From contig CAMDAF010000022.1 of assembly GCA_945888525.1 (NCBI GenBank), positions 1-41,338 on the forward strand: a stretch of 41,338 bases of DNA, written 5' to 3'. Below, in pieces: positions 4,288 through 16,470 of this stretch. The notes below the pieces were generated by a model. The model was given only the letters and a program-made list of their open reading frames with translations. It had not been told where the DNA came from and did not search any database. A program made the translations under genes and the position numbers. How positions within the stretch are numbered: position 1 is the first letter of the stretch; each line of letters starts with the position of its first letter. This DNA comes from Chitinophaga pinensis (GTDB taxonomy: Bacteria; Bacteroidota; Bacteroidia; NS11-12g; UBA955).

Positions 4288-5349
4288 CTAGTTTTTCATT
4301 GAACGCAATTTAATTGCATCAACAATGGTAATCGTGCTGCCTTTAATTTCGATTAAACCTTCTTCTTTGAAGTCTGTTAGGGTTCTAATGAGCGTTTCAG
4401 TAGCAGTACCTGCAATATGGGCTAAATCCTCGCGGCTAATTGGAAAACTAAACACATCGTCAACTTTATTCCCATAGCGCTCTTTTAGCATCATCAAACT
4501 TTCGGCGACTTTCTTCCTAACACTGTCGTAAGCAATTTTTAAAAGGCGTTCTTCCTTCTCTTTAACCTCCTTACTTAATAATTTCATAAACGTGTTGGCC
4601 ACTTCCCTATTCTGATAAATCAGTTTATAAAAATCTTCCTTAAGAATCAATTTAAGTTGGGTTTCCTCCATTGCTATAGCCTCATCTTCATAAACATTGT
4701 CTTCCATTAATGCAATATAGCCAAAGAAATCGCCTTCATTGTATAGCCCAGTAATGAGTTCCTTATCTTGTCGGTTGTTTTTAACCATTTTCACCTTACC
4801 TTTTTCAATCAAATACAAATAAAGAGGTGTATTGCTTTCTGAATAAATAATATCTTTCTTCTTGTATTGTTTATTGCGTGCATTGACATCTACACGGGCA
4901 AATTCTTCAATCGATTTTACTTGGCGAATAAAATGATCAAATCCTTCAGAGTTGTGAGCGAAGTTTTGCCCTGTCAACAAACTTGACTTTTTAAGGCGGG
5001 TATCTACAGCAGCCAGCAATTCAACATCATCAAACGGTTTGGTGACATAATCGTCGGCGCCTAATTCCATCCCTTTTCTAACGTCGGAACGGTCAGCCTT
5101 AGCCGTTAAAAATATAAATGGAATTTGATTGGTGTTTGGGTCTCTGTTTAGCATATGTAATACACCATAGCCATCTAACTCAGGCATCATGATATCACAA
5201 ATAATTAACTCAGGTTTGTTTAACTGAACTTTTATCACCCCTTCTTTCCCATTGTTGGCAGTTGCAACTTGGTGACCGGCTAAAGTTAAAATTTCAGAGG
5301 TATTTTCCCTCATGTTGTCATTGTCCTCAATTAATAATATGTGTGCCAT
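4288..5349 (-). CDS. REC-CRP/FNR fusion transcriptional regulator
   Basis: This 353-residue regulator fuses a phospho-receiver to a CRP/FNR-type DNA-binding module. The receiver occupies 1-120, with E8/D9, phospho-acceptor D52 (CDIMMPELDG), T82 and K104. A cyclic-nucleotide-binding-like beta barrel covers about 155-265 (EKGKVKMV, NEGDFFGYIALM), and a Crp-type helix-turn-helix covers about 290-345 (SREDLAHIAGTATETLIRTL). There is no FNR-type N-terminal cysteine cluster, so direct Fe-S oxygen sensing is not expected. Control by phosphorylation is the simplest reading. The gene lies 13 bp after a PAS histidine kinase at the end of the cbb3 oxidase operon. FNR-shaped boxes upstream of that operon are plausible targets, but the link is inferred. 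Confidence 0.9.
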   Translation of the reverse strand: MAHILLIEDNDNMRENTSEILTLAGHQVATANNGKEGVIKVQLNKPELIICDIMMPELDGYGVLHMLNRDPNTNQIPFIFLTAKADRSDVRKGMELGADDYVTKPFDDVELLAAVDTRLKKSSLLTGQNFAHNSEGFDHFIRQVKSIEEFARVDVNARNKQYKKKDIIYSESNTPLYLYLIEKGKVKMVKNNRQDKELITGLYNEGDFFGYIALMEDNVYEDEAIAMEETQLKLILKEDFYKLIYQNREVANTFMKLLSKEVKEKEERLLKIAYDSVRKKVAESLMMLKERYGNKVDDVFSFPISREDLAHIAGTATETLIRTLTDFKEEGLIEIKGSTITIVDAIKLRSMKN

Positions 5350-5362
5350 TTTTAAATAATTT

Positions 5363-6598
5363 TTATATTGGTAATTTAAGTGTGAATTTGGTCCCCTTTT
5401 CTGGAATGCTTTTAAATTGAATATCGCCTTTTAATATCTCCACATACTTTTTAACAATATTCAAACCCAAACCAGTGCCTTGCATATTGCCAATGTTATT
5501 TGCGCGGTAAAAACGCTCAAAAATATGGGCTTGGTCTTCAAGTGGAATCCCAATGCCTTGGTCTTTTATTTCAATCGTTAGCGTGTTCCCATCTCTACTT
5601 AATTTGATGTCTATATTGGTATTTTCATTAGAATATTTAATCGCATTGCTAATTAAATTAAACATTATGTTTTTGAGAATCCTTTTATCTATAAAAATTT
5701 GCTCATTGACCAAGAGCCCTGTAAAATTAATGCGTTGACCAGCCTTTGCAATCGGCTTGATTTCATCCGTTATAGCGACCAGCAGGTCATTTAAGCCAAG
5801 GTATTCTGGATTGGCCATTACAGCGCCTTCTTCAAGCTTGTCCAATGACAAGAAATCATTTAAAATATCAGTCAAATGGTTAACAGAACTCTTCACACGG
5901 TCGATGTGTTTAGACATGCTGTTTTTATCCATGCTTTCGGCATATTTCCCTGTCAAAGAAACAGAAGACATTATGGTTGCCAAAGGGGTTCTAAATTCGT
6001 GTGAAGCGGTGCTAATAAAACGTGATTTAAGATTATTCAATTCCCTTTCTTTTTCTAAGGCCATATCCACTTCTTTTTTCGACTCTGTTAACTTGCGGAT
6101 CATTTCGGCCAATTCGAGTGTGCGCTCCTGAACTTTTTGCTCTAAATCTTGGTTTAATTTTGACAATTGAAAAGTGGTTTTTTTAAGCAATTCGTTGGCC
6201 TCACGAAGTTCATTGTCTTTTTTCTTCCGCTCTGTGATATCAATAATAAACGACACCACCAACATCCCATCAAAAGATTTCACATAACTCAAACTAATTT
6301 CAATTGGAAATTCATTACCATCTCGACTCTTCGCCCATAAATCGCGACCCACCCCCATAGATCGCGGAGAAGGGTTTTGATGGTAATTGGATCGGTGTTC
6401 TTTGTGCATGTGCAGAAAACGAGAAGGAACTAAATCTTCTATAATTAAAGTACACATGGTTTCCTTATCGTATCCGAACATTTGCAAAGCCTTAGGATTG
6501 GACAGTACAATGTTCCCTTTCGAATCGCTTACAATGATGCCTTCAGTGGCATCTGTGAACATGCCTTCTAGTATTTCGTTATGGTTAAAATTCTCCAT
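5363..6598 (-). CDS. PAS-domain sensor histidine kinase, FixL-like layout
   Basis: This 411-residue soluble kinase has one PAS domain (about 8-125, ending IDITERKK), a coiled-coil linker (about 126-195), HisKA with H200 (ASHEFRTPLA), and HATPase with N318, DQGIGI (346-351) and GTGLGL (374-379). The PAS contains H65 and a GVGR motif ending at R85. That 20-residue spacing matches the heme-ligand His and the GIGR arginine of FixL, but many non-heme PAS domains share it. The gene sits between the oxidase assembly genes and the REC-CRP regulator, only 4 bp after the TauE-like gene. A role in oxygen or redox control of the cbb3 operon is likely from context. No transmembrane segment is visible. Confidence 0.9.
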   Translation of the reverse strand: MENFNHNEILEGMFTDATEGIIVSDSKGNIVLSNPKALQMFGYDKETMCTLIIEDLVPSRFLHMHKEHRSNYHQNPSPRSMGVGRDLWAKSRDGNEFPIEISLSYVKSFDGMLVVSFIIDITERKKKDNELREANELLKKTTFQLSKLNQDLEQKVQERTLELAEMIRKLTESKKEVDMALEKERELNNLKSRFISTASHEFRTPLATIMSSVSLTGKYAESMDKNSMSKHIDRVKSSVNHLTDILNDFLSLDKLEEGAVMANPEYLGLNDLLVAITDEIKPIAKAGQRINFTGLLVNEQIFIDKRILKNIMFNLISNAIKYSNENTNIDIKLSRDGNTLTIEIKDQGIGIPLEDQAHIFERFYRANNIGNMQGTGLGLNIVKKYVEILKGDIQFKSIPEKGTKFTLKLPI

Positions 6599-6602
6599 TA
6601 AA

Positions 6603-7298
6603 TTAATGTTTACAACAGTTTTTGACTTCTACAGTTTGTTTGGTTTGCTCTAACCCTGGGCTTAAATAAGGAATTCCAAGATTTGCGCCTCTGAGAATCA
6701 TCAATACACCCACGATTATTGGTAAAGCCTTGTAAAGGTAGGTAAAACGTTTTACTTTAAAAGAAAATTGCTTGGAAAGCAACATCCATGCGGCTATAAA
6801 TACGGGCATAGTGCCTAGCCCGAATAAGGCCATGTAAACAAGCACCTCTTCTACCTGACTGAAACTTGCACAATAAAGAGCCGCAATATAAATGGCTCCA
6901 CAAGGCAATAATCCATTCATAATACCTAAACCCAAAGCCGACTTATTATGATTAACCCCAATAGAATTCGATATTTTTGTCAACACATTGGTTTGAAAGT
7001 TGGCAAATAATTTTATCCTTGGAAGCTTGAGCATCGGCCATAAAACATATAACACCATAAGACTACCCATAACAATGGAAAGTGTTTGTTGCAATTTGAA
7101 AAACGAAAAGGATATCCCTAAAAGATAAACCATGAATCCAATAAGTATATAAATTGATATCCGACCAATTTGATACAAAAGAGCAAAAACATTTTTATTG
7201 CCTTTTACTTGAGACGGGATATAAAAAGCCAAAGGACCACACATCCCAGCACAATGCAGGGTTGAAATCAATCCGAATATTAGCCCATTTATTAGCAC
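6603..7298 (-). CDS. Sulfite exporter TauE/SafE-like membrane protein of the cbb3 cluster
   Basis: This 231-residue polytopic membrane protein has about six hydrophobic segments. Its N-terminus carries the HCAGMCGPL motif (about residues 15-23), typical of the TauE/SafE-like proteins found beside cbb3 and copper genes. The C-terminus ends in a cysteine/histidine tail, NCCKH, that could bind metal. It begins 1 bp after fixH and is clearly in the oxidase operon. In this family and context a role in metal (copper) handling or cofactor delivery for the oxidase is often proposed. True sulfite export is unlikely here. The exact substrate cannot be read from the sequence. Confidence 0.85.
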   Translation of the reverse strand: MLINGLIFGLISTLHCAGMCGPLAFYIPSQVKGNKNVFALLYQIGRISIYILIGFMVYLLGISFSFFKLQQTLSIVMGSLMVLYVLWPMLKLPRIKLFANFQTNVLTKISNSIGVNHNKSALGLGIMNGLLPCGAIYIAALYCASFSQVEEVLVYMALFGLGTMPVFIAAWMLLSKQFSFKVKRFTYLYKALPIIVGVLMILRGANLGIPYLSPGLEQTKQTVEVKNCCKH

Positions 7299-7299
7299 T

Positions 7300-7719
7300 T
7301 TATAGTTTAATTTTTTTCTCTATTTGATAAAGCCCTTTTGAATACAGATATATATTTAACCCGTAAACACCTGAAACAAATTGGGATTTCAAAAGTGGTT
7401 TAATCATAGATCCTTTAAAAACAAAACTTCTGTCTGCTTTTGCGTTATCTGGTTTCTTAAAAACCAATTTGATCGAATCACAAACCAAAGAAACAGCTTG
7501 CTTTACTTTTACCATACCAGCTTCCTCATAAACAAGAAAAGAATCGGCATATAGATTCCCTAGGTTTAATGCATCAATTTTTGTTTGGTATTCGAGTTCC
7601 TCTGCATAATAGTCTTTTGATTCAAGATCGATATTTTGACCACAGCTTTTAAAAACCATTGTTACAATGAGTAAAACAAAGGTGAGGTAAAGTGCAATTA
7701 TAAAGTATTTAAAATTCAT
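7300..7719 (-). CDS. fixH: FixH family cbb3 oxidase-associated membrane protein
   Basis: This 139-residue protein has one N-terminal membrane anchor (about residues 5-24) and a short periplasmic domain rich in beta-type sequence. The stretch SKDYYAEELEYQTKID just after the anchor is the usual FixH motif (K-x-Y-Y-x2-E-L-x-Y-Q). FixH proteins help assemble cbb3-type oxidase, probably with the copper pump FixI. The gene lies 3 bp after ccoG and 1 bp before the TauE-like gene. The family is divergent, so the call rests on the motif, the topology and the operon position. Confidence 0.85.
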   Translation of the reverse strand: MNFKYFIIALYLTFVLLIVTMVFKSCGQNIDLESKDYYAEELEYQTKIDALNLGNLYADSFLVYEEAGMVKVKQAVSLVCDSIKLVFKKPDNAKADRSFVFKGSMIKPLLKSQFVSGVYGLNIYLYSKGLYQIEKKIKL

Positions 7720-7722
7720 TGA

Positions 7723-9138
7723 TTAATAAATTGGCCCTAAAAAATTAGTTGTTACACGTTCTATTTTTTCACCATCACTGTATAGATCCAAAACCACTTT
7801 CGTTTGATGCCCTGTCATTTGACTGTTTGGTATGACTAAGAAAAACTGCCCATCGTACTTAGATTCAGCTTTGATTTTGATGTCACGACCAATACTTTTT
7901 ACCACGGCCTCTGAAGGCTCAACAACAACAATTTTAAGGTTTGCATCGTGATACGTTTTATTAATGGTTTTAATTAAAAACAGATTTGAATAATGCATAC
8001 TATCCGGTTGTTGGAACAGTAGCCCTGGAGATCTTAATATCGTGCTGTCTATATTTTTACGGCTTGCAATTAAGAGTATAAGGATCCCAAGCAGCAAAAT
8101 TAGCACCACAGTGTATGCGCGGGTTCTCCAATTAAATAGATGCGAAACCCCTGTTGAGATGGAACTCTCGCTGGTAAATTTAATTAAGCGCATAGGTTTA
8201 TGCACTTTTTCCATTACCTCATCGCAAGCATCAATACAAGCAGTGCAATTAACGCATTCCAATTGGGTGCCATTTCGAATATCTATGGCAGTTGGACAAA
8301 CCTTCACACACATGCCGCAATCAATACAATCGCCTTTTGAAATTGGGTCATCTCCTTTTTGGATATGCCCTCTAGGCTCACCCCTTTTGTAGTCATATGC
8401 AACCACTATGGAATTTTTATCCAACATAACCCCTTGCAATCTGCCATAAGGGCATGCGATAAGACACACTTGTTCTCTAAACCAAGCAAACACAAAGTAA
8501 TAAACACCACTAAAAATCAAAATAAGCAACAATCCAACTGCGTGTTCAGAAACTGGCTCCGTTATAATTTCATATAAGCCAGTAACGCCGATCATATAGG
8601 CCAAAAATGTATTGGATATTAGAAAAGCAAAGAGAAAGAAAATGGAATGTTTTAAGGTTCTTTTAAAATGCTTCTCTTTGGTCCATCGACTGTTTTTAAG
8701 TTTAATTTGATTGGCGGCAGAACCATCAATCCAATACTCAATTTTGCGAAAAACCATTTCAAGAAAAACCGTTTGTGGGCAAACCCAACCGCAAAACACC
8801 CTGCCAAATGCGACAGTAAATAAAACAACGAAGAGAACAAAAGTGATCATAGCAACACCAAATATCACCAAATCTTGTGGCCAGAAAATAGCCCCAAACA
8901 AAATGAATTTTCTTTCTAATACATTGAAAAGAAACATGGGGTGCCCATTGTAATTCAAAAAGGGCAGACCAAACAGAACCAGCAAATACATGATGGACAA
9001 GGCGGTTCTGAAGTTGTATAATTTGCCTTTAGGCTGCCAGGGGAAAACCCATTTGCGTTTACCATTGGATCCTATAGTCCCAATTGAATCTCTGTAAGAC
9101 TGATCGACATGCTCAAGTTCAAAGGGGTCCGAACTCAT
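7723..9138 (-). CDS. ccoG: CcoG/FixG: cbb3 oxidase accessory ferredoxin-type protein
   Basis: This 471-residue membrane protein has several transmembrane helices, a CGWVCPQTVF motif in the first third, and a polyferredoxin region with two 4Fe-4S signatures (CIDCGMCVKVCP and CVNCTACIDACD). An Ig-like periplasmic C-terminal domain completes it, which is the full CcoG arrangement. CcoG is a cupric reductase that helps supply Cu(I) for the CuB site of cbb3 oxidase. The start codon overlaps the stop of ccoP as TAATG, so translation is probably coupled. Length and motif set are normal for the family. Confidence 0.95.
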   Translation of the reverse strand: MSSDPFELEHVDQSYRDSIGTIGSNGKRKWVFPWQPKGKLYNFRTALSIMYLLVLFGLPFLNYNGHPMFLFNVLERKFILFGAIFWPQDLVIFGVAMITFVLFVVLFTVAFGRVFCGWVCPQTVFLEMVFRKIEYWIDGSAANQIKLKNSRWTKEKHFKRTLKHSIFFLFAFLISNTFLAYMIGVTGLYEIITEPVSEHAVGLLLILIFSGVYYFVFAWFREQVCLIACPYGRLQGVMLDKNSIVVAYDYKRGEPRGHIQKGDDPISKGDCIDCGMCVKVCPTAIDIRNGTQLECVNCTACIDACDEVMEKVHKPMRLIKFTSESSISTGVSHLFNWRTRAYTVVLILLLGILILLIASRKNIDSTILRSPGLLFQQPDSMHYSNLFLIKTINKTYHDANLKIVVVEPSEAVVKSIGRDIKIKAESKYDGQFFLVIPNSQMTGHQTKVVLDLYSDGEKIERVTTNFLGPIY

Positions 9139-10295
9139 TATTGAACTTCGATAACTTTAACTGAATCTTTAACACCCACAGAGTCGTTGCTCGAAGAAAG
9201 TTCCTCTTCTACGATAACACCATCTGGTGCTTTCGGATTTGCAGGATTGGTGCCTTCTAGTGTATGAATGTAGCTGATAACATTTTGAATATCTACAGGA
9301 CTTAACTCATCTTTCCATGCTTTCATTCCCTTATTGGTGCCATTTTTTACGATTTTAAATAAATCGCCGGCCTTGTTTCCATATACCCAGTATTTATCGG
9401 TAAAGTTAGGACCTACCAAACCTTGACCTTCATTGCCATGGCATACAACACAGTTCTTTACAAAAGTTGCCTTTCCTGCATCTATTTTACCTGCATCAGT
9501 AAAATATGTTGCATTGGTTTCATCTACATTTGAAGCTAAAGTTGCTCTGTAAGCATTCACACTTTTTTCAGCCTCTGCCATTTCGAATTCATACTCTTCT
9601 AAACTCGATTTTGAGTTGTGCGTTACATGGTAACTAATAAAATAAATGATACCTGCAATTATGCTTAGATAGAAACCGTATTTCCACCAAGGAGGCAAAT
9701 CGTTGTCCAATTCTTTAATTCCATCATAGTCGTGGTCAAGCATAACATCTTTGTCTGTTTCAACTGGCTTCACACCTAACAATTTTCTTGAGATGAAATT
9801 GCTTAGGAAAGATTCCTTTTTGACTTTTTCTCCAGCGGTTTGAGAAGCCACAGCCTCTCGTTTTACAATAATCCTTAATATGATCAAGCACAGCCAAAGA
9901 ATGACAAATAATTCGAGCAACAATACGGTAAACAAAGAATAGAATCCCAGTGGATGCATGCCAGCAATTGCATCCGATTCGTATATGCTTTCAGTTACCG
10001 CCGGGGCGCTTGTTTGAGCGAATGTAGTTCCCGACGAAAAAAGCATCAAAATTAACACAAGCGTTTGGGCTCCTTTATTTGCAACAATTTCACGTATTTT
10101 GGTTTTTACGGCTGTCCTTAAGACACCAGATAAAATCATTATGACGATGAGTAAAACAGAGGCAAGTATGCCCATTGCTAGGAAAAGTGGATTGCTTCCA
10201 ATTGATTCCGCTTTAGAATCAGGGCTAAGTGAATAGCCATTGAAAGATATAAATGTCGCGGTGAGGAAGCTTATTGATTTGATTGTTCTCATCAT
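9138..10295 (-). CDS. ccoP: CcoP, cytochrome c subunit of cbb3 oxidase (single-heme form)
   Basis: This 385-residue subunit feeds electrons to the oxidase core. Visible parts are two extra hydrophobic stretches near the N-terminus (about 35-60 and 75-93), another segment at about 115-145, the CcoP N-domain (LDNDLPPWWKYGF, about 196-208) with its membrane helix at about 207-224, and one cytochrome c domain with CVVCH at 282-286. Proteobacterial CcoP has two c-hemes and is shorter at the N-terminus; here only one CXXCH occurs. The C-terminal tail (about 345-385) is acidic and serine-rich. The gene follows ccoQ by 2 bp and overlaps ccoG. Confidence 0.93.
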   Translation of the reverse strand: MMRTIKSISFLTATFISFNGYSLSPDSKAESIGSNPLFLAMGILASVLLIVIMILSGVLRTAVKTKIREIVANKGAQTLVLILMLFSSGTTFAQTSAPAVTESIYESDAIAGMHPLGFYSLFTVLLLELFVILWLCLIILRIIVKREAVASQTAGEKVKKESFLSNFISRKLLGVKPVETDKDVMLDHDYDGIKELDNDLPPWWKYGFYLSIIAGIIYFISYHVTHNSKSSLEEYEFEMAEAEKSVNAYRATLASNVDETNATYFTDAGKIDAGKATFVKNCVVCHGNEGQGLVGPNFTDKYWVYGNKAGDLFKIVKNGTNKGMKAWKDELSPVDIQNVISYIHTLEGTNPANPKAPDGVIVEEELSSSNDSVGVKDSVKVIEVQ

Positions 10296-10472: not shown

Positions 10473-12608
10473 TTATTTTTGAGTATTGGTTGGTTCAGCA
10501 CTGATATCGGTACCCAATCTTTGAAGGTAAGCGATCAAGGCAATAATTTCTTTTTGAGGCATTGCTTTGATGTTTTCCTTTTGAAGATCAGCCACAATTT
10601 CATTGGCTTGTTTCATTAGATCTTTGTTGGCCTCCTTTTCGTAACCTTGCTCATACGGGACACCTAATGTTTGCATGGCTTTGATTTTTGCCTCTGTAAT
10701 ATCCATATCGATATCATTTTCGAACAACCAAGTGTAACGCGGCATTATTGAGCCTGGAGAAATTGTTTGTGGCTCATACATATGGTTGAAATGCCAAGAA
10801 TTCGGTTTTCTAATTTTTTGTGTACCTTCTCTAGCTAAGTCAGGTCCCGTGCGTTTACTACCCCATTGGAATGGGTGATCATACACAAACTCGCCGGCTT
10901 TAGAGTACTCGCCATATCTTGCTGTTTCGCTTCTGAACGGACGAACCATTTGAGAGTGGCAGGTGTAACAACCTTCGCGGATGTATATGTCCCTGCCTTG
11001 CAATTCAAGTGGAGTATATGGTTTTACACTGCTAATGGTAGGCACATTGCTTTTAATTAAAAAAGAAGGAATAAATTCGACTGCTCCACCTATTAAAATC
11101 ACAACCAATGAGAACACCAATAATTCAACAGGTCTTCTTTCAACCCAGCGGTGCCAGTGCTCAGTATGATGTGGCACATAGTCGTCGGTTAATGGAGCCG
11201 CTTCGGCTACTTCATCGTCAACCGCTTTACCAGCGCGAATGGTTTTGATTAAATTGTATACCATTAAAATTGCACCTAGAAAATACAAAGTACCACCAAT
11301 AGAACGCAATAAGTAGAAAGGTTTTAATTGCACAACCGTTTCAAGGAATTGGTATTTCAGAGTTCCGTCTGGCGTAAATTCTTTCCACATTAAACTTTGT
11401 GTCCAACCAGCCCAGTACATTGGTATTGCATACAAAAGAATGCCAAGTGTTCCTAACCAAAAGTGGGTATTGGCAATGCTTTTACTGTAAAGGTCGGTTT
11501 TAAAAATTCGAGGAATTAACCAATATAAGATACCAAAGGTTAAAAAACCGTTCCAACCCAAAGCGCCAACGTGCACGTGGGCAACAATCCAATCGGTAAA
11601 GTGGGCAATTGCATTTACGTTTTTGAAAGAGAGCATTGGACCTTCGAAAGTTGCCATACCGTAGGCAGTAACTGCAACAACCATAAATTTCAATACCACA
11701 TCTTCTCTAACTTTATCCCAAACACCCCTAAGGGTTAATAATCCATTAATCATACCACCCCAACTTGGAGCAATCAACATCACTGAGAAAACAACACCTA
11801 AGGATTGTGCCCAATCTGGCAATGACGTATACAACAAGTGGTGAGGCCCAGCCCAAATGTATAAGAATATCAAAGCCCAGAAGTGGATAATTGACAATCG
11901 GTAAGAATACACTGGTCTATCAGCTGCCTTCGGTAAGAAGTAATACATCAAACCTAGGTAAGGTGTGGTTAAAAAGAATGCAACGGCATTATGGCCATAC
12001 CACCATTGAACCAAAGCATCTTGCATACCTGCATAAAAGCTATAACTCTTCATCCAGCTAAATGGCAATTCAAATGAATTCACAATGTGCAATACGGCAA
12101 CAGTTACAAAAGTTGCGATATAAAACCAAATGGCGACATACAAATGGCGTTCTCTGCGTTTTAAAATCGTACCAAACATGTTCCAACCAAATACTACCCA
12201 AATAAGAGCAATTAAGATATCGATCGGCCATTCTAGTTCAGCATACTCTTTACCAGTTGTATAACCAGCAAGCAAGGTAACTGCAGCAAGAACAATAATT
12301 AATTGCCAGCCCCAAAAATGTATTTTACTCAGGGTATCATTGAACATTCTAGCCTTGCATAAACGTTGCAAAGAGTAGTAGACACCCATAAAAATACCAT
12401 TGCCGATAAAGGCAAAGATGATGGCATTGGTGTGAACTGGTCTAATCCGGCCAAAACTCGTTTGAGCAAGGTCGAAGTTTAAGACCGGAAATACGAGCTG
12501 AAATGCCGCAAGTAATCCAACGAGCATACCCACAAGCGACCAGAGCATAGTCGCATAGGCAAACCATTTCACGATTTTGTTGTCATAATAGAAGGTTTCT
12601 TTATTCAT
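10473..12608 (-). CDS. ccoN: Fused CcoNO: catalytic subunit I plus monoheme cytochrome c subunit of cbb3 oxidase
   Basis: This 711-residue fusion makes up the core of the high-affinity terminal oxidase that reduces O2 to water and pumps protons. The CcoN part (about 1-465) is a multi-helix heme-copper subunit I with its expected histidines: H59 (PVHTNA), H206 (WYGHNA), H256/H257 (GPHHLLY), and H344/H346 (VAHVHVG). A linker and a membrane anchor (about 493-513) lead to CcoO, a cytochrome c domain with CYTCH at 547-551 (then SQMVRPF) and an axial-ligand candidate in the SIMPRY region. Separate ccoN and ccoO genes are usual in Proteobacteria; the fusion is common in Bacteroidota. It starts 6 bp after ccoS. 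Confidence 0.96.
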   Translation of the reverse strand: MNKETFYYDNKIVKWFAYATMLWSLVGMLVGLLAAFQLVFPVLNFDLAQTSFGRIRPVHTNAIIFAFIGNGIFMGVYYSLQRLCKARMFNDTLSKIHFWGWQLIIVLAAVTLLAGYTTGKEYAELEWPIDILIALIWVVFGWNMFGTILKRRERHLYVAIWFYIATFVTVAVLHIVNSFELPFSWMKSYSFYAGMQDALVQWWYGHNAVAFFLTTPYLGLMYYFLPKAADRPVYSYRLSIIHFWALIFLYIWAGPHHLLYTSLPDWAQSLGVVFSVMLIAPSWGGMINGLLTLRGVWDKVREDVVLKFMVVAVTAYGMATFEGPMLSFKNVNAIAHFTDWIVAHVHVGALGWNGFLTFGILYWLIPRIFKTDLYSKSIANTHFWLGTLGILLYAIPMYWAGWTQSLMWKEFTPDGTLKYQFLETVVQLKPFYLLRSIGGTLYFLGAILMVYNLIKTIRAGKAVDDEVAEAAPLTDDYVPHHTEHWHRWVERRPVELLVFSLVVILIGGAVEFIPSFLIKSNVPTISSVKPYTPLELQGRDIYIREGCYTCHSQMVRPFRSETARYGEYSKAGEFVYDHPFQWGSKRTGPDLAREGTQKIRKPNSWHFNHMYEPQTISPGSIMPRYTWLFENDIDMDITEAKIKAMQTLGVPYEQGYEKEANKDLMKQANEIVADLQKENIKAMPQKEIIALIAYLQRLGTDISAEPTNTQK

Positions 12609-12614
12609 ATCTGA

Positions 12615-12782
12615 TTATTTTGAATTTTTTGAATTTTCTGTTTCTTCATCCTCGAATAAAATTCGAACAGATGGGGTGTAAGTGTCGCGGAATTGCCCTC
12701 GCATTCCAGCGCGGATAAACATGATTAAAAAGAACATTGCCAATAGCATACTTGCCCCTATTAAAAGTATCATGATTTCCAT
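12615..12782 (-). CDS. ccoS: CcoS, small cbb3 oxidase assembly protein
   Basis: This 55-residue protein has an N-terminal membrane helix (about 4-24) followed by the CcoS signature GQFRDTYTPSVRILFED (29-45). CcoS is required for cofactor (heme/Cu) insertion into CcoN. It is the first gene of the operon and sits 6 bp before ccoNO. The first ATG (12782) fits family N-termini; a second in-frame ATG lies three codons later. The gene falls below common ORF length cut-offs and is easily missed. The predicted promoter places the transcript start at or next to the ATG. Confidence 0.92.
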   Translation of the reverse strand: MEIMILLIGASMLLAMFFLIMFIRAGMRGQFRDTYTPSVRILFEDEETENSKNSK

Positions 12783-12786
12783 GGTT

Positions 12787-12817
12787 CAAAAATATTTATT
12801 TGCGTTTTTTGAATCAA
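12787..12817 (-). promoter_or_regulatory. Promoter of the ccoS-ccoNOQP operon
   Basis: Read on the minus strand, TTG (12817-12815), 20 bases, then TATTTTTG (12794-12787) match the Bacteroidota consensus TTG-N19-21-TAnnTTTG exactly. The implied transcription start is about 12782-12783, at or beside the ccoS ATG, so the message would be leaderless or nearly so. Confidence 0.7.
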
Positions 12818-12829
12818 TGACCTGAATCA
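12818..12829. promoter_or_regulatory. FNR-type operator box 1 upstream of ccoS
   Basis: TGACCTGAATCA has the TGA-N6-TCA shape of CRP/FNR-family sites (TGAY-N4-RTCA). Its centre lies about 41 bp upstream of the predicted transcript start, the classical class II activator position, directly beside the TTG element. Confidence 0.6.
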
Positions 12830-12837
12830 GAATAATA

Positions 12838-12853
12838 ACTGACACAGGTCAGT
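12838..12853. promoter_or_regulatory. FNR-type operator box 2 upstream of ccoS (perfect palindrome)
   Basis: ACTGAC-ACAG-GTCAGT is a perfect 6+6 inverted repeat with a 4-base centre and contains TGA-N6-TCA. Its centre is 22 bp, two helical turns, from box 1, so two dimers could sit on the same face of the DNA. Boxes 1 and 2 together also form an imperfect 13-bp inverted repeat. Confidence 0.6.
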
Positions 12854-13197
12854 ATTAGGCTTTGGAATATTGGAAACTTATCGATATAATCATGCTTAAA
12901 AATCCTTATTTAAACACACAAGAACTTATTTTACTGTCAATTAAAAACAAAAGGAAAGTCTGCATTAAAATCTATACAATTTAGCTAAAAATTAAAGCAA
13001 TATTAGAATTTACATATTTCGATTAATTTTAAAAAAGACCTAAGCGCTGTCATATTTATTGACAAGAAAGAAATCTTCTAAACAGGCAAAAGGTGAAAAT
13101 ACGATACCAACGCATTTAAACATATGACAGCGCAAAGCTTTAATTGCGATTTGGAATCAATTAATAGACTGAATCAACCCCAAGTGCCGGTTCAAAT
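12854..13197. other. Intergenic region between fixI (3' end) and the ccoS control region
   Basis: This stretch of about 340 bp is AT-rich and has no convincing open frame. It holds a perfect 12-bp inverted repeat, GCGCTGTCATAT (13044-13055) against ATATGACAGCGC (13122-13133). Overlapping its left arm is a smaller TGTCA-N7-TGACA dyad (13048-13064). No T-tailed hairpin was found for fixI. The function is unknown. Confidence 0.5.
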
Positions 13198-15633
13198 TTA
13201 AACCAAGACTTGTTTTTCTTTAATGATAAATTTAGCCATTAAATTGGTCATTGCCCAAGTAATAATCAACATTGAGATGGAGCTACTAGGCATTAATATG
13301 GCAGCAGTGAGAGGTGATAATTGTGCTGTAATTGCATAATACAACCCAATGACATTATAGACCAAGGAGAATGTAAAACTCAAGATCACAACCCATTTTG
13401 CGGCTTTAACCATTTGCATTAAAGACGGCAAACTGCCCAAGGCATTGGCGGTCAATAGCACATCACATGCAGGGAAGAATGAATTCTCGTGGTCGGCAAC
13501 TGAAACGGCAACATCAGCTTCTCTAAGGGCTGGCGCGTCGTTTAAGCCATCCCCTGCCATGCAAACAATTTTGCCTTCTTGCTTTAGTTTTTTAACCAAA
13601 GCAACTTTGTCCTCAGGTTCTTGTTTTATCAAAGCTTGTTCAAAAACAGCATGGTTTATTTCCGCATTCAACTCATTGTCTCCGCTAGAAAGATATAAGG
13701 AATATCCTTGCCTTTTTAGGTCTAACAAGACCCTGTTGGTTTCAGGACGTATGCGGTGGGTAAGAACAAAACAGCCTTTGTACTGACCGTTAATTTCAAC
13801 ATGAACCGCACTTTGCCCTTGCCCTACCTTTCCATGTTCCTGTTTAAGGAAAAGTGCAGATCCTAATCTAATTCGAGTGGAATTAATTGAACCTTGCAGA
13901 CCCTTCCCCGCAAAGTCAGTGTACGCAACCAAGTTAAAATTAACTTTATGAAACACATGGGCGATGGCGACACTATATGGGTGAACAGATTGATAGCATA
14001 AAAAGCCAAGCATACTAAGTTCTTCTGCGCTTAAACATGTTTGATTGCTAACTTCAAAGGCTTTGTTATCGGTTAAGGTTCCCGTTTTATCAAAAATAAA
14101 TGTATCACACTTGGCCATTTGACTTAAAGTATCTTTGTTCTTTACAAACATCCCATTGTTTTTGAGCGTTCTGAGCAAATGCCCATTAGCGAAGGTTGTA
14201 GCAAGTAATAGAATGCAAGGACAAGCTACAATGAGAACGCTGGTAAGCGACTTAAAAGCCTCTTCTAAGCCATTCATATTGTATTGGTAAATAAAAGCAA
14301 AAGCACCAACGATGAGCAAACCCAAGGTGAAATAATAATTTAACTTTTCAGTTAAGGAATTGTCTTTATTTGATTTGTCTTTTTCTATGGCCCATAATTT
14401 AACCAAGCGGCTGTTGTCTGTAGAACCCAATAGCTTAAATTGTGCTGACCGGCCATTGATAACAGCCCCTGCATATACCTTATCACCTGCTTGCACAGCC
14501 ACTGGTTTTGATTCGCCAGTAATAAAACTGTAGTCAACGCTCACAACCCCTGAAGAAAGAACTGCATCAGCAGGCAATAGTTCAGAATTACGCAATTCGA
14601 TGGTATCGTTCTTTGTGAGTTTAGAAATATTTACAACTTGGGAGCTTCCATTTACAATCAATCTTGCAGACAATGGAAAATATGAGCGGTAATCGCGGTC
14701 GAAACTTAAAGAATGGTAACTTAAATCTTGAAAATACCGGCCAGTTAGCAAAAGAAATACGATGCCCGTCATGCTGTCAAAATAGCCCGAATGGTTCATA
14801 ATAAACAATTCGTATAAACTGCGGCCAAATGCCGCAACAATAGCTAGAGTAATAGGCAAGTCGATATTGAGCGTGCGGGTTCTAATTGCTTTGTAAGAAC
14901 CCTCAAAAAATTCGGATGAACAATAAAACAAGACAGGTAAAGACAAAGCCAAGCTAATGTATTCGAACCAATGTTTTAGAGTGGTGCTCGAGACGTCTGA
15001 AGACAAGCCCAAATACTCAGGAAAACTGAGCATCATAATGTTGCCAAAGCAAAAACCGGCCACACCAATTTTAATGGTCCGAGTCGAAAATTTATTTTTC
15101 TTGACTCCAGAATTGTTAGAAAGTGTGAGGTCGGGTTTGTAACCCAAGCCGAACAAAAGGGCAACCAAACTGGACAAAACTTTTGGGCCATTCTTAACAG
15201 TGACTAGGAGTTCCTTATTAAAGAAATCGACACGAGAAGATAAGACAGCTTGATTTAATTTATCCAAGCGTTCCAACAAATAAATACAAGAATTACAATG
15301 CATTCCTGGTATTCTAAATTTAAATTGAACGGTATCGCCTTGGCTAAAGATTTTGAATTTATCGGCCGTCTCAATTTCATCTAAAAAATCCAAACCTCCC
15401 TGTTCTGTTGATTCGGGCGTTAAACCTTTGCCTTCATCATAATAGCGGCACATGTTGCTGTCGCTAAGAAGGGTAAAGACGGCGGCACAACCAGTGCAAC
15501 AAAAGTTTAATTCAGATTCTATAAGCGCATGGTCTTCACATGGAAGGCCACAGTGGAGACATGGTTTGATGTTTGAAACTTTGGCTTCATTTAACTTCTC
15601 AGTTAAAACACCTGCCTTCAGATCAATATCCAT
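13198..15633 (-). CDS. fixI: FixI/CcoI-type copper-transporting P1B ATPase
   Basis: This 811-residue membrane pump exports Cu for assembly of cbb3 oxidase. The N-terminus has a cysteine cluster (C25, C28, then FCCTGC at 44-49) typical of the CcoI family, followed by an HMA-like domain with GMHCNSC (110-116). The P-type core shows TGES (372-375), the transmembrane CPC at 471-473 (CPCILLLA, with Ile where Ala is usual), the phosphorylated D515 in DKTGT, an HP motif (SVHPYSVA) and GDGLNDAP in the hinge. It begins 12 bp after a universal stress protein gene. Its stop lies 415 bp before ccoS, so it belongs to a separate transcription unit from the oxidase structural genes. Confidence 0.95.
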   Translation of the reverse strand: MDIDLKAGVLTEKLNEAKVSNIKPCLHCGLPCEDHALIESELNFCCTGCAAVFTLLSDSNMCRYYDEGKGLTPESTEQGGLDFLDEIETADKFKIFSQGDTVQFKFRIPGMHCNSCIYLLERLDKLNQAVLSSRVDFFNKELLVTVKNGPKVLSSLVALLFGLGYKPDLTLSNNSGVKKNKFSTRTIKIGVAGFCFGNIMMLSFPEYLGLSSDVSSTTLKHWFEYISLALSLPVLFYCSSEFFEGSYKAIRTRTLNIDLPITLAIVAAFGRSLYELFIMNHSGYFDSMTGIVFLLLTGRYFQDLSYHSLSFDRDYRSYFPLSARLIVNGSSQVVNISKLTKNDTIELRNSELLPADAVLSSGVVSVDYSFITGESKPVAVQAGDKVYAGAVINGRSAQFKLLGSTDNSRLVKLWAIEKDKSNKDNSLTEKLNYYFTLGLLIVGAFAFIYQYNMNGLEEAFKSLTSVLIVACPCILLLATTFANGHLLRTLKNNGMFVKNKDTLSQMAKCDTFIFDKTGTLTDNKAFEVSNQTCLSAEELSMLGFLCYQSVHPYSVAIAHVFHKVNFNLVAYTDFAGKGLQGSINSTRIRLGSALFLKQEHGKVGQGQSAVHVEINGQYKGCFVLTHRIRPETNRVLLDLKRQGYSLYLSSGDNELNAEINHAVFEQALIKQEPEDKVALVKKLKQEGKIVCMAGDGLNDAPALREADVAVSVADHENSFFPACDVLLTANALGSLPSLMQMVKAAKWVVILSFTFSLVYNVIGLYYAITAQLSPLTAAILMPSSSISMLIITWAMTNLMAKFIIKEKQVLV

Positions 15634-15645
15634 AACTCAAGAAAC

Positions 15646-16470
15646 TTAACAAACGATTAAAACTGGAGATTGGGTAAATTTAAGTGCATACTTAGAAAAC
15701 CGCTTATGAAACAGATTTTGCCAAACATTATAATGGTGGGCATAAACAACCAAGATATCTGGTTTCAAATGTTTAATTGCTTTCTCAAATTCCACTTCTT
15801 TATCAAGTCCTTGAATTTGTTTGAGGTCGATAGACTGGGAAGAAAACATTTTTTTAAGGCCATGTTTAAAATTCCCTGCATTGCGCTCAACGGCTGCGTC
15901 GTAATGAGAAACATTTAGAGCAGTAATTGTCGCATTGTGACTTCCAAGCATTTCTTTTAAAACTGACAATTGATGAACTTCTGCAGATTTACCGTCCCAA
16001 GCATAGGCAATATGGTCTAAATTAAGTGACTTAGAATTAAAAGGAACAACAAATAAAGGGCTTTGAATTTTCCCGATTAGCGTTGTACATACATCGCCGA
16101 AAATCACTTTGTCTAAGCCTGTTCTTTTTTTAACGCCAAGCACTGAAATCCATGGAGAAAGAGCCTCCACCTTTTCTGCAATAGTAGGAATTAAAAAACC
16201 GTAATCAACTTCGAAAGCAATTTGCATTCCTGAACGCGTTTTTTTCAAATAGGAAATGCCCCGACGAAGCAAGGCTGAAGTTTTTTTGATGTCTAATTCA
16301 GGATTGTAGGTATACAAATTCTCGCTATCTGTAAGAACAGAAGTTGAAACAACATGGTAAATAAACAAACGGGATCCTGTTTTAAATGCTAGGTCGGCGG
16401 CTAATTCTAAAGCATTTTTAGAGGCTGGACTGAAATCGTGAGCAGCAAAAACTATTTTATTGTGTTTCAT
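15646..16470 (-). CDS. Universal stress protein, tandem UspA domains
   Basis: This 274-residue cytoplasmic protein consists of two UspA-like domains (about 1-142 and 148-274). The first opens with the typical strand KIVFAAHDFSPAS. The GxxG-N8/9-G(S/T) nucleotide-binding motif is not clear in either domain, so it may be a non-ATP-binding type. It is the first gene of a unit with fixI, 12 bp apart. Usp genes coupled to cbb3/fixI clusters are known in oxygen-limited regulons (for example the Anr/FNR type). A TGAT-N4-ATCA box and a TAGTTTTG -7-like element (minus strand, 16506-16499) lie upstream, supporting low-oxygen control. Confidence 0.88.
   Translation of the reverse strand: MKHNKIVFAAHDFSPASKNALELAADLAFKTGSRLFIYHVVSTSVLTDSENLYTYNPELDIKKTSALLRRGISYLKKTRSGMQIAFEVDYGFLIPTIAEKVEALSPWISVLGVKKRTGLDKVIFGDVCTTLIGKIQSPLFVVPFNSKSLNLDHIAYAWDGKSAEVHQLSVLKEMLGSHNATITALNVSHYDAAVERNAGNFKHGLKKMFSSQSIDLKQIQGLDKEVEFEKAIKHLKPDILVVYAHHYNVWQNLFHKRFSKYALKFTQSPVLIVC

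Follow-up and report, generated by a model that had tools for sequence, protein, structure and literature searches.

The analysed stretch of DNA (hereafter the window, 41,338 nt) carries a gene cluster for a cbb3-type cytochrome oxidase, recognised by ccoN, ccoO and ccoP (the latter by E-value, below the curated cut-off) together with ccoS and ccoG, and the genes for a universal stress protein and a ccoI-type ATPase are found upstream of the ccoS operon. In the direction of transcription, the genes are:

15646..16470, minus strand, universal stress protein (Usp; PF00582), first gene of a Usp-ccoI unit
13198..15633, minus strand, ccoI-type heavy-metal P-type ATPase (TIGR01525/TIGR01511, below the curated cut-offs), beside ccoS in relatives
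12615..12782, minus strand, ccoS, first gene of the operon (TIGR00847, 34.6 bits; PF03597), putative start 4 nt below the TTTG of the promoter
10473..12608, minus strand, ccoNO fusion, cbb3 oxidase subunits I/II (NF011053, 1294.6 bits)
9138..10295, minus strand, ccoP-like cytochrome c subunit (TIGR00782, E 5.1e-30, below the curated cut-off)
7723..9138, minus strand, ccoG (TIGR02745, above the cut-off)
6603..7719, minus strand, two small membrane-protein genes, ccoH-like by position and o6603, without firm family match, position conserved in relatives
5363..6598, minus strand, PAS-HisKA-HATPase histidine kinase (domain matches)
4288..5349, minus strand, REC-CRP response regulator (REC, cNMP_binding and HTH_Crp_2 domains)

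Between ccoI and ccoS, a perfect 12-bp inverted repeat was observed (GCGCTGTCATAT/ATATGACAGCGC, 13044-13055 and 13122-13133, 66 nt apart), which was rejected as a repeated element because it occurs only once in the genome. Closer to ccoS, the minus strand reads as an outer box TGACCTGTGTCA, 10 nt, an inner box TGATTCAGGTCA, 27 nt, the TTTG of TATTTTTG, 4 nt and the ATG of ccoS:

12851-12840, minus strand, outer box TGACCTGTGTCA, in the perfect palindrome ACTGAC-ACAG-GTCAGT (12838-12853), kept in G010, G017, G008, G012, G019, G011, G015 and other genera
12829-12818, minus strand, inner box TGATTCAGGTCA, centre 12823.5, with a conserved N27 to TTTG
12817-12815, minus strand, TTG at '-33', then N20 to TATTTTTG, not conserved in relatives
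12794-12787, minus strand, -7 element TATTTTTG, followed here by AACC; its TAnnTTTG form emerges from 63 aligned sites and is in line with the published consensus (PMC7366714)

On the forward strand the boxes read TGACCTGAATCA (12818-12829) and TGACACAGGTCA (12840-12851), with a centre-to-centre distance of 22 bp. The box at 12840-12851 is the sole zero-mismatch TGACNNNNGTCA within the window, and an exact TGAYNNNNRTCA-N10-TRAYNNNNRTCA was detected as a single pair in the 2.42-Mb genome, namely the ccoS boxes. An earlier note on this DNA had described paired boxes with centres 22 bp apart, one of them inside a perfect ACTGAC-N4-GTCAGT palindrome, and boxes and palindrome were all recovered here. 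Compared to the FNR box TTGAT-N4-ATCAA, both TGACCTGTGTCA and TGATTCAGGTCA match in the TGA..TCA core and differ at the other positions.

The check proposed in the earlier note was whether the boxes are conserved upstream of cco in relatives, and reading the ccoNO loci from 30 genomes of the family revealed that they are kept with a fixed geometry. Among the genomes of the genus, the eight whose operon is closest all carry an outer and an inner TGA-N6-TCA, with a TAA (TAAC) inner half-site in G011 and G015. Within these genomes the box spacing is 22 bp (G000, G010, G017, G011, G015) or 23 bp (G008, G012, G019), and the G of TTTG follows 31 nt after the inner box ends (32 nt in G011). The 22-bp spacing and the 31 nt are also kept in the genera g6, g12, g13 and g14, where the boxes themselves differ (outer TGATAAAATCA-like, inner mostly TGAG..TCA) and where the ccoS leader is longer, the start codon following 9-22 nt below TTTG at the sampled sites compared to 4 nt here. 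The same distance between box and TTTG despite the longer leader indicates that the boxes are fixed to the -7 element and not to the start codon. In two genomes of genus g8 (L030, L031) ccoS is preceded by only one box, which is separated from the G of TTTG by 42 nt and thus lies one helical turn away from either position of the pair, inner or outer. In seven further genomes (G024, G006, G009, G013, G018, G030, G031) ccoS closely follows another reading frame and no boxes were detected directly before it.

For a statistical assessment, the composite pattern TGAN6TCA-N10-TGAN6TCA-N27-TTTG was searched with the reversed pattern as control, which led to 64 matches in 37 of 70 family genomes and 97 matches in 52 of 108 order genomes, with 0 matches of the reversed pattern in either set. 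A separate set comprised 80 loci (1.43 Mb) that surround homologues of REC-CRP, mostly from Bacteroidota. Over distances between 10 and 60 bp, 59 TGA-N6-TCA pairs in this set were 22 bp apart and six were 23 bp apart, and no other distance accounted for more than three pairs (0-3). For control words matched in composition no excess at 22 bp was seen in these 80 loci, and from first-order Markov sequences of the same length a mean of 0.1 pairs is expected compared to the 59 observed. Only 6 of the 59 pairs are located inside open frames of at least 150 codons (53 outside), as opposed to 426 of 819 single boxes (393 outside). The commonest gap between such pairs and TAnnTTTG is 27 nt, and single boxes outside pairs are followed by TAnnTTTG at N27 (42 cases) and N49 (17 cases) and hardly elsewhere, the two peaks matching the places taken by the inner and the outer box in a pair. 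The boxes on the minus strand are real, as chance is excluded by their conservation and by the spacing statistics.

Alignment of 63 sites also revealed preferences at the free positions: outer base 4 is Y in 91% of the sites and outer base 9 is R in 86%, the inner box is followed by T in 74%, and T (69%) and A (79%) stand two bases before TTTG. The latter gives TAnnTTTG, the -7 consensus of Bacteroidota (PMC7366714). Downstream of the inner box no signal for a -33 TTG was detected across the 63 sites, and the TTG was therefore rejected as a conserved element. The earlier note had described a consensus TTG-N20-TAnnTTTG promoter, of which the TAnnTTTG part is conserved, whereas the -33 part occurs here without being kept in relatives. 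The lack of a conserved -33 is what one would expect of a class II promoter that depends on an activator, in which the box would replace the -33/-35 element. With a predicted transcription start 4-5 nt below TTTG (12783 or 12782), the inner box would be centred at -40.5 or -41.5 and the outer box at about -63, and from the fixed N27 between box and -7 element an inner centre of about -41 is predicted for the relatives as well. This would agree with the position of class II FNR sites near -41.5 (PMC3688515) and with the class II-positioned CRP/FNR-type pair before the cbb3 operon put forward in the earlier note. For many Bacteroidota, a tandem class II operator of the CRP/FNR kind before cbb3 and related genes is well supported. 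As the predicted start falls on or beside the ccoS start codon, the ccoS transcript would have almost no leader. The corresponding codon is GTG in G011 and TTG in G015, and a conserved ATG is located three codons downstream (window 12773-12794; L014, L015).

We were also interested in the protein that might bind these boxes. Four HTH_Crp_2 matches were found in the genome, namely REC-CRP, two Crp-like proteins and one DtxR/MntR-like protein. REC-CRP is the only CRP-family protein of the genome with an FNR-like recognition helix (TATETLIRTL), which contains the E-x-x-x-R motif (E-[ST]-x-[IS]-R in relatives, including E-T-V-S-R); its E and R presumably correspond to E209 and R213 of FNR. An FNR-like E-x-x-x-R helix suits the TGA half-site. 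The two Crp-like proteins (206-207 aa) show the helices SSREVISR and TARVVVSR and no Cys cluster. REC-CRP itself has a single Cys (Cys51, in REC) and lacks the N-terminal 4Fe-4S Cys cluster of FNR, and none of the CRP-family proteins of the genome was recognised as an FNR-type Fe-S protein. The designation 'FNR-type' used in the earlier note consequently applies to the boxes and to the recognition helix but not to the protein. The phospho-acceptor Asp52 of the REC domain as well as Thr82 and Lys104 are invariant, and the kinase gene adjoins that of REC-CRP in 70 of 75 distant loci with a full-length REC-CRP, as expected for a two-component pair. REC-CRP is, as judged from the sequence, the probable binder in this genome. 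The nearest PDB structures to the PAS domain of the kinase are a multi-sensor kinase (10jx), followed by the heme PAS domains of FixL and DosP. FixL-type heme sensing by the kinase is unsupported, as the proximal heme-ligand His of FixL is replaced by Arg. This His is retained in some relatives (e.g. L190, L204), and members of the family may therefore not all share one sensing chemistry.

In g6, g13 and g14 the 3' end of the cco operon, the place taken here by kinase and REC-CRP, encodes a 236-aa FNR-like Crp with cysteines at positions 10, 13, 22, 38, 59 and 112. At outer base 4, C was counted in 10 of 17 REC-CRP sites and in 4 of 14 sites of the FNR genera; a co-evolution of this half-site base (C or T) with the regulator type was considered and dropped, as the sites are related by descent. 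When family genomes were sorted by hand for the presence of REC-CRP or FNR-like Crp (CRP-domain matches with E up to 1.2e-30), the composite pattern was found in 34 of 46 genomes with either protein and in 3 of 24 without (Fisher p 8.8e-7, only indicative as the genomes are related). Only one composite-pattern match was detected in five genomes of genus g11 with REC-CRP, and in the REC-CRP loci of Flavobacteriaceae (L207-L226) tandem boxes were found in 2 of about 20, though the recognition helix is similar. The link between operator and REC-CRP is therefore strong in the other lineages sampled, but not universal. One genome of the genus to which the window belongs (G014; L075, L076) encodes an FNR-like Crp and at least two REC-CRPs and carries 12 composite operators, far above its relatives, which points to an expanded regulon. 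Among 61 proteins encoded below the pattern in the sampled loci were ccoS (12), D-2-hydroxyacid (lactate) dehydrogenase (6), PAS kinase (5), Usp (3), Hsp20 (2), ScdA/hemerythrin (2) and SDR (2) as well as single CBS, BON, ccoG and P-type ATPase proteins. This gene set would fit a low-oxygen or anoxia-survival regulon, in a sample that is biased to REC-CRP and cco neighbourhoods.

Taken together, 12787-12853 most likely represents the tandem class II operator and core promoter of the cbb3 operon, served by the kinase/REC-CRP pair, a reading to which we assign a probability of roughly 70%. The operon ccoS-ccoNO-ccoP-ccoG-ccoH-o6603-HK-REC-CRP would be driven from this region, with two CRP/FNR-family dimers bound to the TGA-N6-TCA boxes at about -41 and -63 on the same face of the DNA. 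The inner dimer may stand in for the missing -33 and recruit RNA polymerase to TAnnTTTG, and the outer dimer, two turns upstream, would probably sit beside it and reinforce it by cooperative binding. Upon phosphorylation by the PAS kinase, REC-CRP~P might occupy both boxes and switch on the oxidase genes at low oxygen, which we infer to be the signal. As kinase and REC-CRP are encoded in the target operon, the system would also control its own genes. In the sister genera, the cysteine-bearing FNR-like protein from the same operon position may act on the same geometry.

An unlikely, though the most serious, alternative is a different CRP-family binder, either one of the remaining two Crp-like proteins or an Fe-S FNR whose gene fell into a gap of the assembly, with REC-CRP acting elsewhere. 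The assembly is 98% complete and not closed, and the FNR-like protein encoded at this operon position in sister genera goes along with the same operator geometry, both of which would be in favour of such a binder. However, the two Crp-like proteins are poor candidates by their helices and the lack of a Cys cluster, REC-CRP is encoded within the operon in eight genomes of the genus, and the operator is strongly enriched in distant REC-CRP loci, where it frequently lies directly upstream of the kinase gene or directly below that of REC-CRP. Clearly less probable is repression, with a regulator at -41/-63 that blocks polymerase and is released as oxygen falls. CRP/FNR proteins do repress some promoters, and the sites of FNR-repressed promoters are spread between positions upstream of -35 and positions overlapping the start (PMC3688515), but the favoured box positions at N27 and N49 are those of an activator, none is favoured over the -7 element or the start, and the -33 is missing as at activator-dependent promoters. 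Finally, a chance or hairpin sequence without regulatory role was considered, as a lone TGA-N6-TCA box is common (819 in 1.43 Mb); for the pair, spacing, promoter distance and conservation across genera refute chance statistically and leave this explanation with a negligible probability.

The proposed activation by kinase and REC-CRP resembles several known systems in part. With class II promoters of E. coli FNR the locus shares the TGA/TCA half-sites, the E-x-x-x-R helix and a box at about -41 from the predicted start, but E. coli FNR usually uses one site (89% of peaks; PMC3688515), whereas a second box is located exactly 22 bp upstream here, the promoter is of the TAnnTTTG type and REC-CRP, the likely binder, has no Cys cluster. 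With rhizobial FixL-FixJ-FixK, which acts on fixNOQP/ccoNOQP, it has in common a two-component input to a CRP/FNR-type factor controlling cbb3 oxidase, and the PAS domain of the kinase is near FixL among solved structures, apart from the Arg in place of the heme His. FixJ combines REC with a LuxR-type output, in contrast to the cNMP_binding and HTH_Crp_2 output found here, and REC-CRP alone would take the roles of both FixJ and FixK, its gene and that of the kinase being located inside the cco operon. The Bacteroidota primary sigma promoter (TAnnTTTG at -7, TTTG at -33) has TAnnTTTG at the same fixed place, but its -33 is not conserved here, where the inner activator box ends; in Flavobacterium johnsoniae, a -33 was likewise not identified in general (PMC7366714). 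The FNR-like Crp of g6, g13 and g14 shares operon position and 22-bp/N27 geometry with REC-CRP, but is Cys-bearing and comes without REC and without kinase.

Our search of the open-access literature did not yield any account of this operator or of a REC-CRP protein controlling cbb3 in Bacteroidota. Oxygen control in environmental Bacteroidota has been little described, and no account of it was given in the papers retrieved. Whether the sites represent a widespread promoter class of Bacteroidota, with tandem CRP-family dimers exactly 22 bp apart at -41/-63 that replace the -33 and with an interchangeable sensor (Fe-S FNR or PAS-kinase/REC-CRP), appears evenly balanced to us. If so, cbb3 oxidase, universal stress proteins, D-lactate dehydrogenase and iron-repair proteins would form a low-oxygen regulon under the control of this class. 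The composite signature (two boxes, 22 bp, N27 and TTTG; 0 control matches in 108 genomes) can be used to search any such genome for candidate targets of a two-component CRP regulator that is as yet uncharacterised, and the exchange of a Cys-bearing FNR-like protein for kinase/REC-CRP at the same operon position and with the same operator geometry is a clean natural example of sensor replacement.

A second tandem promoter following the N27-TAnnTTTG rule was detected before the Usp gene:

16564-16553, minus strand, outer box TGATATGGATCA, kept in G010, G017, G008 and G012
16541-16530, minus strand, inner box TGCTCTATGTCA, with a degenerate 5' half-site, N11 below the outer box (spacing 23 bp)
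16506-16499, minus strand, -7 element TAGTTTTG, N27 from the inner box and 28 nt above the Usp start codon

The inner 5' half-site of this promoter is TGC in three of these four relatives. With this second copy before Usp-ccoI, both transcription units of the cco cluster would be under the same kind of operator. Seven other matches to a single box with N27 and TTTG were found in the genome, three of which face a long open frame on the opposite strand and one of which lies within a frame on its own strand, and a second TGA-N6-TCA 22 bp upstream was detected in none of the seven. In the same genome, a single box TGACCATTATCA followed by N27 and TAATTTTG (G000:C7:30562-30604, L238) is located 22 nt before a gene for an MBL-fold (persulfide dioxygenase-like) protein.
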